Of a stretch of DNA of 64,000 nucleotides, positions 6,484 through 60,247 are shown piece after piece (positions within the stretch are counted from its first letter, which is position 1; every line of letters begins with the position of its first letter). The translations under genes and the position numbers were made by a program. Where the stretch lies: positions 1 through 64,000 of the forward strand of contig CAJYXJ010000068.1 in the NCBI GenBank assembly GCA_913778085.1. Reading direction: 5' to 3'. The notes under the pieces are model-generated. The model ran no database searches and had not been told where the DNA came from. It was given only the letters and a program-made list of their open reading frames with translations. Source of the DNA: an uncultured Chryseobacterium sp. Its GTDB lineage: Bacteria > Bacteroidota > Bacteroidia > Flavobacteriales > Weeksellaceae.

Positions 6484-6565
6484 AGTAAATGGTGAATCCG
6501 CTTCGCTTGTCAATTTTTGCAGTACATCGATTGACCATTCACTTGCATAGCAAAATTCACCCTTC
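6484..6565. repeat. Dispersed intergenic repeat, GACCATTCAC family (copy 1)
   Basis: Contains ATGGTGAAT, CGCTTCGCTTGTCAATTTTT and ATTGACCATTCACTTGC, ending in GCAAAATTCACC. The same blocks recur at 6830-6915, 14617-14750, 14935-14990, 45226-45270 and 54100-54130, always between genes. Confidence 0.7.
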
Positions 6566-6609
6566 ACTTTAAACACAAACTTCGTCATTGACAAAACCGG
6601 TATTTTTCA

Positions 6610-6829: not shown

Positions 6830-6922
6830 TCTTCGATACGCTTCGCTCGCCAATTTTTTTCGGTACATCAGATTGACCATTCACCTGCAAAGCAAAATTC
6901 TCCAGTGATTTATTCACTATTT
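6830..6922. repeat. Dispersed intergenic repeat, GACCATTCAC family (copy 2)
   Basis: Contains CGATACGCTTCGCTCGCCAA and, further on, GATTGACCATTCACCTGC and AAGCAAAATTC, closely following copy 1 at 6484. The two copies flank the Flavo-1-like element. Confidence 0.65.
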
Positions 6923-14934: not shown

Positions 14935-15057
14935 GACTAGCGAATTCGCTATTCATTATTCTCCTACGCAGTAAAATTCACCATTCAAAAAACCACCCCG
15001 TCAAAAATTATTTCGTAATTTTCGCCACTCCTCCTCAGGAGTGGAATTTCGATTAAG
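14935..15057. repeat. Long dispersed repeat shared with 54100-54210
   Basis: AAAATTCACCATTC, then ACCACCCCGTCAAAAATTA, then a palindrome around TTCGTAATTTTCGCCAC, then a short inverted repeat and AATTTCGATTAAGG. The same order of blocks is found at about 54115-54210. It is noncoding and lies near gene ends in both places. Confidence 0.65.
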
Positions 15058-32856: not shown

Positions 32857-33085
32857 ATCTGAAAATTTTTCAAAATTACTTATTAAAGGAGAATGCGCAA
32901 AGTATTTATGATATTTTATAAACAGGAAATTTCTTCAGATCGTATTCAATGGATGAAGTATTAGAAATTAATTGGTTTTGCGTTTTGAATAACCATCAAC
33001 CTCAGCTTAATAACTATACATATTATCAAGCTGAAAGTCTTGAAACCACAGGAATTATTATTTAATGATACCGGCTACGTATGAA
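32857..33085. other. Upstream region of the glycosyltransferase with a degenerate R2 copy
   Basis: No gene is supported. Around 33028-33048 TCAAGCTGAAAGTCTTGAAACC looks like a decayed R2 repeat. The GATACCGGCTACGTATGAAAA stretch that follows recurs with small changes near 34272 and 34458, flanking the array on the other side. Confidence 0.55.
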
Positions 33086-33759
33086 AATCTTTCGAGAACC
33101 TCAGGATGACACAACGCTAATACTAACCTGAATTATGTTCCGTAAAAATATACAGCCATTTAATACTGCATATACGCACTGTCAGGCTGAGGCTCTCGAA
33201 GCCACCACTAAAGCTGTGCGAAAATCCTTCGATAGCCTCAGGATGACACAACGCTAATACTAACCGGGATTATGTTCCGTAAAAATATACACCATTTTAA
33301 TTCAAACCAAACTGCATGTACGCACTGTTAGGCTGAGGCTCTCGAAGCCACCACTAAAGCTGTGCGAAAATCCTTCGAGAGCCTCAGGATGACACAACGC
33401 TAATACTAACCGGGATTATGTTCCGTAAAAATATACAGCCATTTAATACTGCATGTACGCACTGTCAGGCTGAGGCTCTCGAAGCCACCACTAAAGGTGT
33501 GCGAAAATCCTTCGATAGCCTCAGGATGACACAACGCTAATACTAACCTGAATTATGTTCCGTAAAAATATACAGCCATTTAATACTGCATATACGCACT
33601 GTCAGGCTGAGGCTCTCGAAGCCACCACTAAAGGTGTGCGAAAATCCTTCGAGAGCCTCAGGATGACACAACGCTAATACTACCTGAATTATGTTTCATA
33701 AAAATATACTGCCATTTAATACTGCATGTACGCACTGTCAGGCTGAGGCTCTCGAAGCC
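33086..33759 (+). repeat. Tandem array of five R1-R2 inverted-repeat units
   Basis: R1 (ATCCTTCGAGAGCCTCAGG plus ATGAC) ends at 33110, 33247, 33393, 33530 and 33667. R2 (GTCAGGCTGAGGCTCTCG plus AAGCC) begins at 33181, 33327, 33464, 33601 and 33737. R1 and R2 are imperfect inverted repeats of each other, so every unit can fold as a long hairpin. The period is 137, 146, 137 and 137 bp. Linkers between R2 and the next R1 read CACCACTAAAG(C/G)TGTGCG. The last R2 ends 38 bp before the GIY-YIG gene. Confidence 0.95.
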
Positions 33760-33797
33760 TTTCCGCAAATATTTATATCTTTAATTAAAAATACAAT

Positions 33798-34094
33798 ATG
33801 AAAAGATACTACGTTTACATTCTCAAATGTTCTGATAATTCATATTATACCGGTGTTACAAATGATATTGAAAAGAGAATACAATACCATACAGAAGGTA
33901 TCAATCCTGATTCATACACTTACTCAAGAAGACCTGTCGAATTGGTTTTTCACACAGAATTTAATGACGTGAACCAAGCCATTGCCTTTGAAAAGCAGGT
34001 AAAAGGATGGAGCAGAAAAAAGAAAGAAGCGATCATTAATGATGAATGGGAAAAACTTCCCAACTTATCAAAAAGAAGAAAACCAAATACATAA
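33798..34094 (+). CDS. GIY-YIG nuclease, copy 1, inside R1/R2 repeats
   Basis: The 98-residue single-domain protein has YYVYILKCSDNSYYTGVTND (GIY and YIG elements), the catalytic Arg in EKRIQYH and the metal-binding Glu in IAFEKQVKGWSRKKK, plus a basic C-terminus. It belongs to the URI/YhbQ group of small GIY-YIG enzymes, which cut DNA. A second copy at 50087-50383 differs at five residues only. Both are preceded by R2 at 37-38 bp and followed by R1 then R2 in the same orientation. I infer that enzyme and repeats form one selfish or mobile unit, like RAYT and REPINs. Confidence 0.9.
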   Translation: MKRYYVYILKCSDNSYYTGVTNDIEKRIQYHTEGINPDSYTYSRRPVELVFHTEFNDVNQAIAFEKQVKGWSRKKKEAIINDEWEKLPNLSKRRKPNT

Positions 34095-34113
34095 TAGTTG
34101 GCAGTATCTGAAA

Positions 34114-34415
34114 AATCCTTTGAGAGCCTCAGGATGACACAACGCTAATACTAACCGGGATTATGTTCCATTTAAATAAACAACCATTTAATTCAAACCA
34201 AACTACATGTACGCACTGTCAGGCTGAGACTCCAAGCCACCTTACTACAATAAAGAAATCATGATCAATGATACTGGTGACGTATGAAAATCCTTCAAGA
34301 ACCTCAGGATGACACAACGCTAATACTAACCGGAATTATATTCCATTTAAATAAACAACCATTTAATTCAAACCAAACTGCATGTACGCACTGTCAGGCT
34401 GAGGCTCTCGAAGCC
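34114..34415 (+). repeat. Two further R1-R2 units after GIY-YIG copy 1
   Basis: R1 ends at 34138 and 34313. R2 lies at 34218-34238 (slightly shortened) and 34393-34415. The spacer between R1 and R2 keeps ACAACGCTAATACTAACCGG. The unit here is 175 bp because the linkers are longer (ATCATGATCAATGATACTGG type). Confidence 0.9.
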
Positions 34416-45031: not shown

Positions 45032-45360
45032 TGAATGATGAGTTATAGGTGATGTATGATAAATGCTTATTTTTATTAATATTGTAGATGTTTATGCTCT
45101 TTTGCCATTTTCGGATGAGGTTGAAATACACAAGAATTGCAGAAAAAATAATGTTTCAAGACGCAAAGAATTCGGCAAAGTCAAAATTTAATACTTTGCG
45201 TTTTTCCACTAACACTTACCTTGTAAATTCACGATTGACCATTCACTTGCGAAGCAAAATTCACCATTCTCTATTCATACCTACCCATAATCTGACGAAA
45301 TGTCACGCTTTTTTCTTTGGCAGAATGTTTGCGAATAAAAAGGAAAATAAAGATTGAATT
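45032..45360. other. Intergenic region with dispersed repeats before grpE
   Basis: 329 bp. TTTCAAGACGCAAAGAATTC and ACTTTGCGTTTTTCC near 45153-45210 belong to the CGCAAAG repeat type also seen at 53890-54060. CACGATTGACCATTCACTTG at about 45228 with GCGAAGCAAAATTCACC is a GACCATTCAC-family copy. An ORF at 45088 only reads through these repeats. Confidence 0.65.
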
Positions 45361-49695: not shown

Positions 49696-49899
49696 AGTAT
49701 TTTAATATTTTTTTAATAATTGTTAAAGCGCAAAATTAATTATTTAATTCGGTTTTCCGTATGGTCGGCATTAATTTCAGCATAATACTTAGCAAAGAAT
49801 ACACCGTTGATTAAATGGGCGGTGTTATTAAGAGTGGTTTGGAAGGGTTTGGATATTTTCATCCTGACAGCCTATAATCAGATTAATATCAGCATTATG

Positions 49900-50073
49900 T
49901 CATCCTGAGGCTCTCGAAGGATTTTTATACACCGTCAGTAAAGGCTTCGAGAACCTCAGCTTGACAGTACGCATATGCATTTTTGATTGAATTAAAATGC
50001 TTGTTCTGTTCAGTCAGCGGAACATATTTCAGGTTATAATTAGCGTTAGGTCATCCTGAGACTCTCGAAGGAT
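49900..50073 (-). repeat. R1-R2-R1 repeats at the second GIY-YIG locus (downstream side)
   Basis: In minus-strand order: R1 at 50073-50050, R2 at 49966-49944 and R1 at 49923-49900. The spacers keep AACGCTAATTATAACCTGAA and GTTCCG, as in the array at 33 kb. The rest of the gap from the DUF808 gene (49696-49899) shows no feature. Confidence 0.9.
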
Positions 50074-50086
50074 TACACCGCTATTG

Positions 50087-50383
50087 TCATCTATTTGGTT
50101 TCCTTCTTTTTGATAGGTTTGGCAGTTTTTCCCATTCATCATTAATAATAGCTTCTTTCTTTTTTCTGCTCCATCCTTTCACCTGCTTTTCAAATGCGAT
50201 AGCTTGATTTACATCATTGAATTCTGTATGAAAGACCAATTCAATAGGTCTTCTTGAATATGTATATGAATCAGGATTCATACCTGCTGTATGATATTGC
50301 ATTCTTTTTTCGATATCATTGGTAACACCGGTATAATAGGAATTATCAGAACATTTAAGAATGTAGACATAGTATCTTTTCAT
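50087..50383 (-). CDS. GIY-YIG nuclease, copy 2, inside R1/R2 repeats
   Basis: The 98-residue product is identical to that of copy 1 (33798-34094) except for five substitutions: Ile-Met twice, Glu-Ala, Val-Ile and a final Thr-Arg. All motifs are kept (YVYIL, YTGVTND, EKRMQYH, AFEKQVKGW). The upstream sequence is also conserved between copies over the R2 repeat and the next 37 bases (GCAAATATT(C/T)ATATCTTTAA). This supports movement or duplication of gene plus repeats as one unit. Confidence 0.9.
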   Translation of the reverse strand: MKRYYVYILKCSDNSYYTGVTNDIEKRMQYHTAGMNPDSYTYSRRPIELVFHTEFNDVNQAIAFEKQVKGWSRKKKEAIINDEWEKLPNLSKRRKPNR

Positions 50384-50420
50384 ATTGTATTTTAGTTAAA
50401 GATATGAATATTTGCAAAAA

Positions 50421-50551
50421 GGCTTCGAGAACCTCAGCCTGACAGTGCGCATATGCAGTTTTAATTGAATTAAAATGGGTGTTCTGTTCAGTCAAGGAAA
50501 CCTATTTCAAATTAGTATTAGCGTTAGGTCATCCTGAAGATTTCGAAAGAT
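50421..50551 (-). repeat. R1-R2 unit upstream of GIY-YIG copy 2
   Basis: In minus-strand order: a somewhat decayed R1 (50551-50528, TCTTTCGAAATCTTCAGGAT) and then R2 (50443-50421, GTCAGGCTGAGGTTCTCG and AAGCC), 37 bp before the ATG. The remaining 170 bp to the next gene are AT-rich without other features. Confidence 0.88.
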
Positions 50552-50722
50552 TTTACACCACCGGTAAAATAGCAAAAAATCCAACTGTAAGGAAAGTTAT
50601 CTCATCAGCATGAAATTTTGAATTAACAACAAAAAATGCAGATAAGAAATCATCCTAAACAAGCAGTAAAGAAAGCTCCAGCCAAAAGAGAATCTTCATT
50701 TAAATTTCCATATCTTTAATTT

Positions 50723-53829: not shown

Positions 53830-54460
53830 GATTTTTTATTTCCTGCAAAAATAAGAAATTTTTATTCCGTTATGGCCGGATTATACAAAGGCACAAGAAA
53901 TCTGATGATGGCAACGCAAAAAGGCGCAAAGAATCTAACACTGTCAAATTTTTATGCCGTTGATAATATTGTTGCTAAACTGGAATCAAAGAAGCGGTAT
54001 TCCACTTTGTCAGGCATAAATTCCCTGCGATTTAAAACGTTCTGTATAGTAAGAAGATTCGTCTCTCTGCATTTTCTCAACATCATTGCAGTTAAAAATC
54101 AGCATTCACTCACGAAGCAGAATTCACCTCCCAAACCACCCCCGTCAAAAATTATTTCATAATTTTTCGCCACCCCTTAGACTTTCGGAGGGGAAATTGC
54201 GGTTAAGGGTATTTCTTCAGCCTTTCGATTGGGTTGGAATTCGCAAGGACGCAAGATAATTGGACCATTATACCGCTGAAAGGCGCAAGAATTTGACGCC
54301 GTCAAATTTTGATACCGCAAATCCCAACCTTTGAATTTTTATGCTTTACAAAATCCACGGTATACAGTTTTATCAGAGATAAATCCTGGCGATCTAAAAA
54401 AGCCTTTTTTAAAAGATTTGTGTCCTTGCATTTCATTAGAATCCTTTCAAAACAATGGCT
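53830..54460. other. Repeat-rich intergenic region
   Basis: 631 bp without a credible gene. Two related blocks, about 53885-54070 and 54240-54440, each contain CGCAA(A)GG, AAGGCGCAA(A)GAAT, a GTCAAATTTT stretch and a later TTTAAAA/CTGC region. They look like diverged copies of one repeat. Between them, at about 54100-54210, lies a copy of the long repeat found at 14935-15057. Three ORFs in the region only translate repeat sequence. Confidence 0.6.
54100..54210. repeat. Long dispersed repeat shared with 14935-15057
   Basis: ATTCACTCACGAAGCAGAATTC, then CCACCCCCGTCAAAAATTAT, TTCATAATTTTTCGCCACCC, and GGAAATTGCGGTTAAGGG follow the block order of the copy at 14935-15057. Confidence 0.6.
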
Positions 54461-59122: not shown

Positions 59123-60247
59123 TTATTTTTTATCTTTATCCAGCAAGGCTATATATTCTCCGTAGCCTTTCGCTTTCATTTCCGCTTTCGGAATAAATTT
59201 CAGCGAGGCACTGTTGATGCAATAACGAAGTCCTCCTTTATCGGCCGGTCCGTCGTTGAAGACGTGTCCCAAATGTGCATCTCCGGTTTTACTTCTTACT
59301 TCTACCCTGGTCATTCCGTGGGAACGGTCCAGTTTTTCTTCTACCAGTTTTTTGGTAATTGGCTTGGAGAAGCTCGGCCATCCGCAGCCGGACTCAAATT
59401 TATCCGTAGAGATAAATAACGGCTCCCCAGTGGTGATATCCACATATATTCCTTCTCTGGTTTCATCCCAGTATTCATTCTGAAAGGCCATTTCGGTTCC
59501 ATTTTCCTGGGTTACATTGTACTGCTCGGCAGTCAGTTTTTCTTTTAAGACTTTTTTATCCTGCTTCTGATATTTGGTTTCCTTACCTTCTTTTTTTGGC
59601 GGATTGGCGTTCCTTGCCATTTCAAACAATCCCGGTTCGATGTGGCAATAGCCTCCCGGATTTTTATCCAGGTAATCCTGATGGTAGTCTTCAGCTCTGT
59701 AGAAATTCTTTAAAGGAATCGTTTCTACTACAACCGGTTTGCTGTAATTTTTAGCCAGTTTTGCCACTTCAGCTTTTACTGCGGTTTCCGTCTCTTTATC
59801 GGTGGTATAAATTCCCGTTCTGTACTGGTTCCCTCTGTCATTTCCCTGCTGGTCGATACTTGTGGGATCAATGGTTTTAAAATACAAATCGATCAGCAGA
59901 TTCAGATCTACAACTTCAGGATCGTATTTTACCTTTACTGTTTCTGCAAAACCTGTGGTATGGCTTACCACTTCTTCATACGTCGGATTTTTTTTGTTTC
60001 CGTTGGCATATCCTACTTCCGTACCTACAACGCCTCTGATCTGCTGGAAAAAATGTTCGGTTCCCCAAAAACATCCGCCGGCAAAATAGATTTCCTTTAC
60101 ATTTTTATTGTCCATAATGGTCTCATTTTCTTTCTTTACCTCCGTGGATTTGGTTTTGGCATCTCCACAACTTGTCGCAAAAACCGCAATACCCAGAACG
60201 ACGCTGAGCAATATTAATATGTTCTTCATTTTTATTTTTATATCCAT
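59123..60247 (-). CDS. msrAB: Lipoprotein MsrA-MsrB fusion (methionine sulfoxide reductase)
   Basis: Both stereoisomers of methionine sulfoxide are reduced by one chain. The 374 residues have a lipoprotein signal (AVFATSC, Cys27), an MsrA domain at about 50-205 with the catalytic Cys59 in AGGCFWG, and an MsrB domain from about 232 with the catalytic Cys343 in [12 protein letters not shown]. The zinc-binding CxxC pairs of many MsrB enzymes are missing, so it is a zinc-free form. The lipid anchor places it in the envelope, where it can repair oxidised surface proteins. A second Met at residue 7 (60229) is an equally good start. Confidence 0.93.

Follow-up and report, generated by a model that had tools for sequence, protein, structure and literature searches.

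The window, that is, the whole stretch of 64,000 nucleotides analysed here from an uncultured Chryseobacterium sp., carries two copies of a gene coding for a 98-residue GIY-YIG nuclease, one on the forward strand at 33798-34094 (locus 1) and the other on the reverse strand at 50087-50383 (locus 2). As an earlier note on this DNA had claimed, the gene at locus 1 is enclosed by copies of two repeats, R1 and R2. Its ORF is intact, its product matches PF01541 with an E value of 2.1e-18, and an array of repeat pairs is found on both sides. The product of locus 2 matches the Pfam GIY-YIG family with an E value of 8.4e-18. The two proteins share 96% amino acid identity and the two genes differ at 11% of their bases, with a dN/dS of 0.026. 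With such a low ratio between the copies, the protein is kept by selection, and this selection is strongly purifying. Residues Y17, G19, R27, and E65 were among the invariant motif positions of 26 aligned sequences, both window copies included. The Pfam search returned only the GIY-YIG domain and no Y1 HUH tyrosine transposase domain. No NCBIfam model was matched by the window protein; the group I intron model of that collection was matched far below its cut-off by two relatives and not at all by the window protein. The best sequence match among solved structures was 1zg2 (UPF0213 protein BH0048, E value of 3.5e-15), which places the protein in the UPF0213/YazA sequence family. From the ORF descriptions and the comparison of flanks, rsmI was recognised in neither of the genes flanking the window nuclease.

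A nuclease gene within hairpin repeats

R1 (CTTCGAGAGCCTCAGGATGAC) and R2 (GTCAGGCTGAGGCTCTCGAAG) are inverted copies of a single imperfect hairpin. REPs are widespread repeats of bacterial genomes, and here they are arranged head-to-head over a conserved spacer as REPINs, with nine such units of 117-132 bp each in the window. Each REP forms a strong stem, and for most units a single long stem is predicted. At locus 1, five R1-R2 units lie upstream of the gene (33086-33759) and two downstream (34115-34415), all on the forward strand. The upstream units occupy 33086-33203, 33223-33349, 33369-33486, 33506-33623, and 33643-33759, the R2 of the last being the 5' REP that adjoins the gene. Downstream are the units at 34115-34239, whose R1 is the 3' REP adjoining the gene, and 34289-34415. 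A degenerate R2 copy (33009-33047, forward strand, 62% match, repeat family D3) borders the array on its left. The locus 2 gene has a single unit upstream (50421-50552) and another downstream (49943-50074), both on the reverse strand, plus a lone R1-type REP past the downstream unit (49899-49922, forward strand, exact match). The order R1-R2-gene-R1-R2, previously described as identical at the two loci, does recur around the second copy on the reverse strand, with the qualification that locus 1 has five plus two units. Most REPs of the window begin with TGTC and some at locus 2 with GGTC, the general form of the tag being TGTC/GTCA. The window REPs thus carry, before the stem, a tag of the CGTC/TGTC/CCTC type known from the CGTC superfamily and not the GTAG tag of RAYT systems. 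Rfam gave nothing above the gathering score in the window, and its single sub-threshold match had an E value of 0.72. A separate AT-rich dispersed repeat (CGATTGACCATTCACTTGC..AGCAAAATTCACC; family D4, overlapped by D13) has copies at 6528-6568, 6870-6910, 14949-14989, 45232-45272, and 54095-54135 that are 63-90% alike to the reference copy.

In each REP, CTGAG stands opposite CGAAG, which leaves two G-A oppositions and hence an irregular stem. Both of these blocks were fixed by our search pattern. Two stem positions covary, both being paired in 265 of 323 REPs compared with a mean of 70.5 and a maximum of 91 after shuffling; in this Bacteroidota stem the first A is set by the pattern and it is the next two positions that covary. 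Once duplicate loci were removed, which weakened the head-to-head excess, adjacent REP pairs numbered 61 head-to-head, 49 tail-to-tail, and 38 same-strand in the fetched loci, most of which are gene loci and arrays. Gaps clustered at 27-37, 64-70, and 78-91 bp in head-to-head pairs and at 20-29 and 43 bp in tail-to-tail pairs. Just ahead of the tag, 29 of 148 REPs have a TATTAG box, compared with a mean of 2.4 and at most 9 after shuffling.

The assembly from which the window comes holds four matches to the window protein at E values up to 1, namely the two window copies and two further types at 35% identity, L003 (G000:C62:1085-1351, reverse strand) and L004 (G000:C71:11740-11991, forward strand, with a stop inside the frame). 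Each of the latter is surrounded by its own repeat family starting with GTCAT (GTCATTCCGCAGGAATC for L003, GTCATTGCGAGGAACGAAGCAATC for L004), and a pattern covering both families had 34 matches in the genome and none when reversed. In the window itself, positions 59310-59324 (GTCATTCCGTGGGAA) match the L003-type pattern, remote from both gene loci. Window-type REPs also stand very close to contig ends at L014 (G000:C16) and L024 (G000:C54). The window-type repeat has 14 exact matches in the genome, and as 10 of them are at the two gene loci, it is little dispersed in this draft assembly, which probably broke at repeats and so undercounts REPs.

Gene-repeat linkage and subtype matching in Bacteroidota

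A scan of public genomes yielded 174 relatives, of which the best 80 (67-93% identity) were fetched. The motif GTCA..CTGAG..TCGAAG was found within 1.5 kb of the gene in all 80 loci, with 422 matches near the gene (1.6 per kb) versus 15 far from it (0.03 per kb). REPs flanked the gene on both sides in 75 of the 80 loci; the nearest ones pointed heads-out in 43 of these 75 and were ordered otherwise in 32. In control loci around two other genes, a single match was seen in 3 of 45 and two matches in none, this control set excluding the window-clade loci L144-L150 and L174-L181 because those sites hold repeats. A test that uses no motif and asks for an inverted repeat between the two 400-bp flanks, with 16 or more of 18 bases matching, was positive at 65 of 80 gene loci versus 16 of 1556 control positions in the tested loci. 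The unit measured from tag to tag was compact (346-393 bp) in 24 loci and longer or with arrays in the rest. Among 197 genomes of the family, the repeat pattern matched in 115 and, read backwards, in 0. The repeat signal is therefore far above chance. The gene did not occur mostly without repeats in this clade, an outcome that the earlier note had considered; ten more distant loci without inverted repeats are described below.

Three loop classes can be told apart among the Bacteroidota repeats: 4G (the window type), 4C, and 5C. To compare them with the enzymes, we used a tree built from 105 small GIY-YIG proteins, which has few columns and leaves 53 of 100 inner branches open; because of short or misread frames, it excludes L070, L090, and the second window copy. 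The loop class of 78 rows required 4 changes on this gene tree versus a mean of 20.8 when shuffled, with 0 of 200 shuffles as low, bearing in mind that closely similar copies will group together whatever the tree. In several genomes two gene types coexist, each accompanied by the repeat class that belongs to it (L042/L099, L040/L114, L041/L047, and L039/L046).

Repeat abundance was then related to the gene in the 197 family genomes, 36 of which carry a close gene (E value up to 1e-35) and 33 a more distant one (1e-15 to 1e-35), whereas the remaining 128 gave no match at this limit. The median number of REPs, those at the gene included, was 20, 2, and 0, respectively, and thus the repeats are not equally abundant where the gene is missing. 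At least two REPs were present in 36 of 36 close, 17 of 33 distant, and 44 of 128 gene-less genomes, and at least ten in 31, 7, and 23. The difference in REP number between genomes with a close gene and those with none was at the floor of a genus-stratified permutation (p = 5e-5). In one relative, at G160:C1:1619754-1622037, four consecutive GIY-YIG matches lie within 2.3 kb.

REPs away from the gene also tended to be of the matching subtype; their number was obtained by subtracting from the total those within the fetched gene loci, which extend 1.0-1.5 kb to either side. Close genes were given a class by their best protein match and each class was counted separately. In 36 genomes, unlinked cognate REPs had a mean of 17.6 and a median of 11.5 (n = 44) versus 3.3 and 0 for non-cognate ones (n = 64), again at the permutation floor (p = 5e-5). 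The means were 18.0 versus 3.2 when G099 was left out and 19.2 versus 3.2 in 32 genomes when genes below 70% identity to a reference gene were left out. Within genera (141 genomes, seven genera), p was at the floor for each class, in a test that omitted the ambiguous G099 but kept G062 and one G074 gene of similar identity. Non-cognate unlinked repeats outnumber cognate ones in G138, G120, G062, and G099. The dispersed 5C repeats include at least 25 close pairs among the matches listed, all of them head-to-head when counted by eye. For RAYTs (TnpA-REP), Nunvar et al. (PMC2817692), in the part of the paper considered here, linked enzyme to repeat by the coevolution of the enzyme with its flanking REPs and by the correlation of gene presence with the abundance of cognate REPs. 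The lines of evidence are the same here, as loop class follows the gene tree and gene presence goes with cognate REP abundance with the above four exceptions in 36 genomes.

Gene and repeats might merely be inherited together, with the subtype match reflecting shared ancestry and the REPs perhaps serving as terminators around the gene. The strong stems of the REPs would fit this, as would the clustering of near copies on any tree, and our class and abundance tests still include relatedness within the genus. Nevertheless, we consider such passive linkage highly improbable, since unlinked repeats match too, also with genus held fixed, several genomes contain two gene types each with its own repeat type, and the pattern recurs in other phyla.

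Twelve of the 23 REP-rich gene-less genomes were checked for other GIY-YIG genes. Only UvrC-length GIY-YIG proteins were found in G078, G082, and G135, a UvrC-length one plus a weak partial match in G193, and a different small GIY-YIG in the other eight. With four of the 12 lacking a confirmed small GIY-YIG gene, the repeats can persist without it. This persistence agrees with another reading, in which a different enzyme (e.g., a RAYT) or host replication slippage spreads the REPs and the GIY-YIG protein is a passenger or a tamed processor or limiter of hairpins; strong purifying selection and stable sites are likewise what a host-serving gene would show. However, Di Nocera et al. (2013; PMC3733652) associated no transposase with CGTC repeats in the sections considered here, and a different enzyme would need to covary with the GIY-YIG subtype, given the match of the unlinked repeats. 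We regard this reading as rather improbable and favour a nuclease dedicated to the REPs.

History of the gene-bearing sites

To follow the two window sites in relatives, 30 regions per locus were fetched, out of 60 genomes matching one flanking gene, and the second flank was recognised in 12 of 30 regions for locus 1 and 23 of 30 for locus 2. At the locus 1 site, the window and G231 have an intact gene and G209 a broken one; REPs without the gene are present in G204, G157, and G224, and one region ends at a contig end. In the remaining regions, the class patterns picked up no REP when as many as 2 mismatches were allowed, and some weaker matches appeared at 3. At the locus 2 site, the gene is found in the window and G157, and only REPs in G231 and G151. 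By eye, G151 (L181) has a loop of about 20 bp in place of the gene. Between the window and G157, the locus 2 gene has a dS of 0.10 versus 0.775 for its left and 0.726 for its right neighbour, the genes compared being short. Near-identity extends, by eye, from about 50105 to 50451; one end is just past the upstream R2 and the other inside the 3' end of the gene, not at a REP. A recent transfer between species or a gene conversion at the same site seems the likeliest cause of this similarity, and one unit was probably exchanged between species.

For a third site, next to valS in Chryseobacterium, 109 genomes gave a match and 30 loci were fetched, 7 of which contain the gene. In the gene-free loci L208, L213, L218, and L220, we observed by eye a hairpin with outer arms like those of the gene-bearing loci, and L218 resembles the deletion scar of a gene-bearing unit. 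Loss of the gene with a hairpin left behind seems to fit this comparison better than a gain. In the region downstream of valS (L204-L233), several gene-free relatives also have a strong palindrome, CAGGCTG..CAGCCTG, which may be a terminator that arose from the REP arms or resembles them.

GIY-YIG homing endonucleases are known, and these sites invite the question of whether the window gene is one of them, nested in the loop of REP-like palindromes. Gene-free palindromes would then be cut and the gene copied in by recombination, the repeats being targets and not offspring. The short loop that the gene replaces at locus 2, the outer arms common to gene-bearing and some gene-free loci at valS, and the apparent same-site exchange between species of the gene at locus 2 are all in line with homing, and as with GIY-YIG homing endonucleases, the nuclease domain is shared and the gene can sit inside a palindromic site. 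On the other hand, the valS site fits loss equally, with L218 as the apparent scar, and we saw no intron, while a protein of 98 residues leaves no room for a separate DNA-binding domain. Homing alone would also leave many unlinked cognate repeats unexplained while the gene stays at 1-4 matches per genome. We thus judge homing unlikely, and a nuclease that acts on dispersed repeats is the reading we retain.

The 80 loci represent 20 contexts, the largest with 31 and 15 members. As most of them are in few stable contexts, frequent transposition of the gene was not seen, and the idea that the REP-gene-REP unit is an active insertion sequence was given up, since the 20 contexts include large ones common to many loci. 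Insertion sequences and MITEs have terminal inverted repeats, target-site duplications, and clean empty sites; here, inverted ends are present. The empty orthologous sites that the earlier note had proposed to look for did not appear, at least in clean form: locus 1, locus 2, the valS site, and the G196/G169 pair yielded neither a clean insertion site nor a duplicated target. Orthologous sites differ in REP content, yet the intergenic sequence is replaced too and no insertion is exact to the base; at one G196/G169 site a REP is degraded or missing inside an alignable stretch (L313/L315). The gene thus appears to be mostly inherited vertically, sometimes lost, and sometimes moved. RAYT genes are mostly inherited as well, sometimes lost or moved, and the history inferred here resembles theirs more than that of active insertion sequences.

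Related nucleases in other phyla and a putative mechanism

A tblastn search of plasmid records, some of them chromosome-sized, returned 32 records with an L003-type query and 26 with the window query. Twenty-five regions were fetched, 24 of them from phyla other than Bacteroidota, and 12 of the 25 loci passed the inverted-repeat test versus 6 of 150 control positions. Hairpins tagged with CGTC (e.g., CGTCATTCCCGCGCAGGCGGGAATCCA) flanked the gene on either side in Neisseria gonorrhoeae, Azospirillum, Shinella, Aeromonas, Sphingobium, Novosphingobium, and Neorhizobium and lay on one side only in Photobacterium (L270). Repeats of the proteobacterial loci also take the form CGTCATTCCC..GGGAATCCA; the CGTC tag was seen in L264, L265, L267, L269, L271, L272, and L288, and several proteobacterial loci have a stem of 8-9 bp starting A-T, T-A. 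By eye, related repeats also flank the gene on either side in Sinorhizobium, Planktothrix, Sphingomonas, and Methylobacterium, and are seen on a single side in Rhizobium tumorigenes (L268). L268, L270, and Spirosoma (L274) failed the strict inverted-repeat test and were scored as failures, repeats being visible nearby by eye. Among viral contigs, nine stretches fitted a pattern and none was a relative. Judged from these sequences, the pairing of GIY-YIG genes with REPs reaches beyond flavobacteria.

One of the two REP superfamilies sorted out in 2013, the CGTC-tagged repeats that include Neisseria dRS3 and Rickettsia RPE-4/6, was apparently without a dedicated transposase, a question left open in the part of the paper considered here (Di Nocera et al., 2013; PMC3733652). 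Its members have a CGTC, TGTC, or CCTC tag, a stem of 8-9 bp that begins with A-T, T-A, and mostly head-to-head dimers, tail-to-tail ones being rare (PMC3733652). The repeats described here are alike in their terminal tag and hairpin and include head-to-head dimers; they differ in that the Bacteroidota stem has two G-A oppositions and variable inner base pairs, and in that a GIY-YIG gene is associated with them, whereas those sections of PMC3733652 report no associated transposase. In the genomes compared, a given type of nuclease tends to be accompanied by dispersed repeats of the corresponding type, which suggests that it is the missing enzyme of a widespread repeat family. We hold the chances about even that the entire CGTC/GTCA-tagged superfamily, Neisseria dRS3 and flavobacterial REPINs alike, is mobilised by dedicated GIY-YIG nucleases. 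If so, the GIY-YIG partner would fill the enzyme gap of this superfamily.

The linkage, the bracketing, the subtype matching both in cis and among unlinked copies, the covariation of the hairpin, and the purifying selection make a functional coupling of the GIY-YIG nuclease with the REPs very likely. The gene probably codes for a trans-acting nuclease dedicated to REPs, analogous but unrelated to RAYT, and a role in the spread of REPs is likely too. The earlier proposal that the enzyme recognises and spreads the hairpins is strongly supported as regards the link itself (80 of 80 loci, subtype match, unlinked cognate REPs), whereas recognition and mobilisation we infer. The small stand-alone nuclease would recognise the folded, GTCA-tagged hairpin of its own subtype and cut at or near the tag, most likely on a single-stranded or cruciform repeat; host repair or template switching would then copy the repeat pair to a new place. 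GIY-YIG enzymes cleave hydrolytically with no covalent intermediate, and copying would therefore rest on host repair. Binding, cleavage, and copying of hairpins by this nuclease are thus putative steps. The gene, between inverted REPs, would remain at low copy, mostly vertical with occasional transfer, while the repeats multiply in trans. We know of no bacterial transposable element in which hydrolytic cleavage without a covalent intermediate is combined with spread by repair.

Such a system would work as a RAYT-REP system, or REPtron, with a non-homologous enzyme. Both have a low-copy gene bracketed by inverted REPs (PMC2817692, PMC8266576, in the parts considered), and they share enzyme/REP coevolution, the correlation between gene and repeat abundance, and dispersed repeat pairs. 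They differ in the enzyme, here a GIY-YIG protein recognised from its sequence and in RAYTs a Y1 HUH transposase, in the tag, GTC(A) versus GTAG, and in that no covalent DNA intermediate is expected from GIY-YIG chemistry. RAYT enzymes cut single-stranded REPs in vitro. The earlier note knew of no such system in flavobacteria, and our literature search agrees: by title, abstract start, or term counts, no GIY-YIG/REP link appeared among the matches listed, in a search with preprints and most subscription papers outside its scope, and "GIY" was absent from the portions of PMC12306157 and PMC6006769 considered. If the reading is true, this would be a second, independently evolved enzyme-driven REP system and a case of convergent evolution of REP systems on unrelated enzymes. 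It would also offer for study a very small hairpin nuclease, each subtype of which predicts its own substrate.

The UPF0213/YazA proteins (PDB 1zg2, 1ywl) share the domain and are of similar length. Ten small GIY-YIG loci of the YazA branch, including YazA-type genes in Bacilli, all failed the inverted-repeat test, and three of the four fetched Bacilli loci (L277, L278, and L285) show the trmN-yazA-rsmI neighbourhood. In the tree, a branch with a support of 99 sets these ten apart, with long branches, which makes them a useful negative group. By eye, most REP-linked proteins have K-x-W where YazA has K-x-L, the exceptions being L003 (K-S-F) and the unlinked L283 (K-Q-W).
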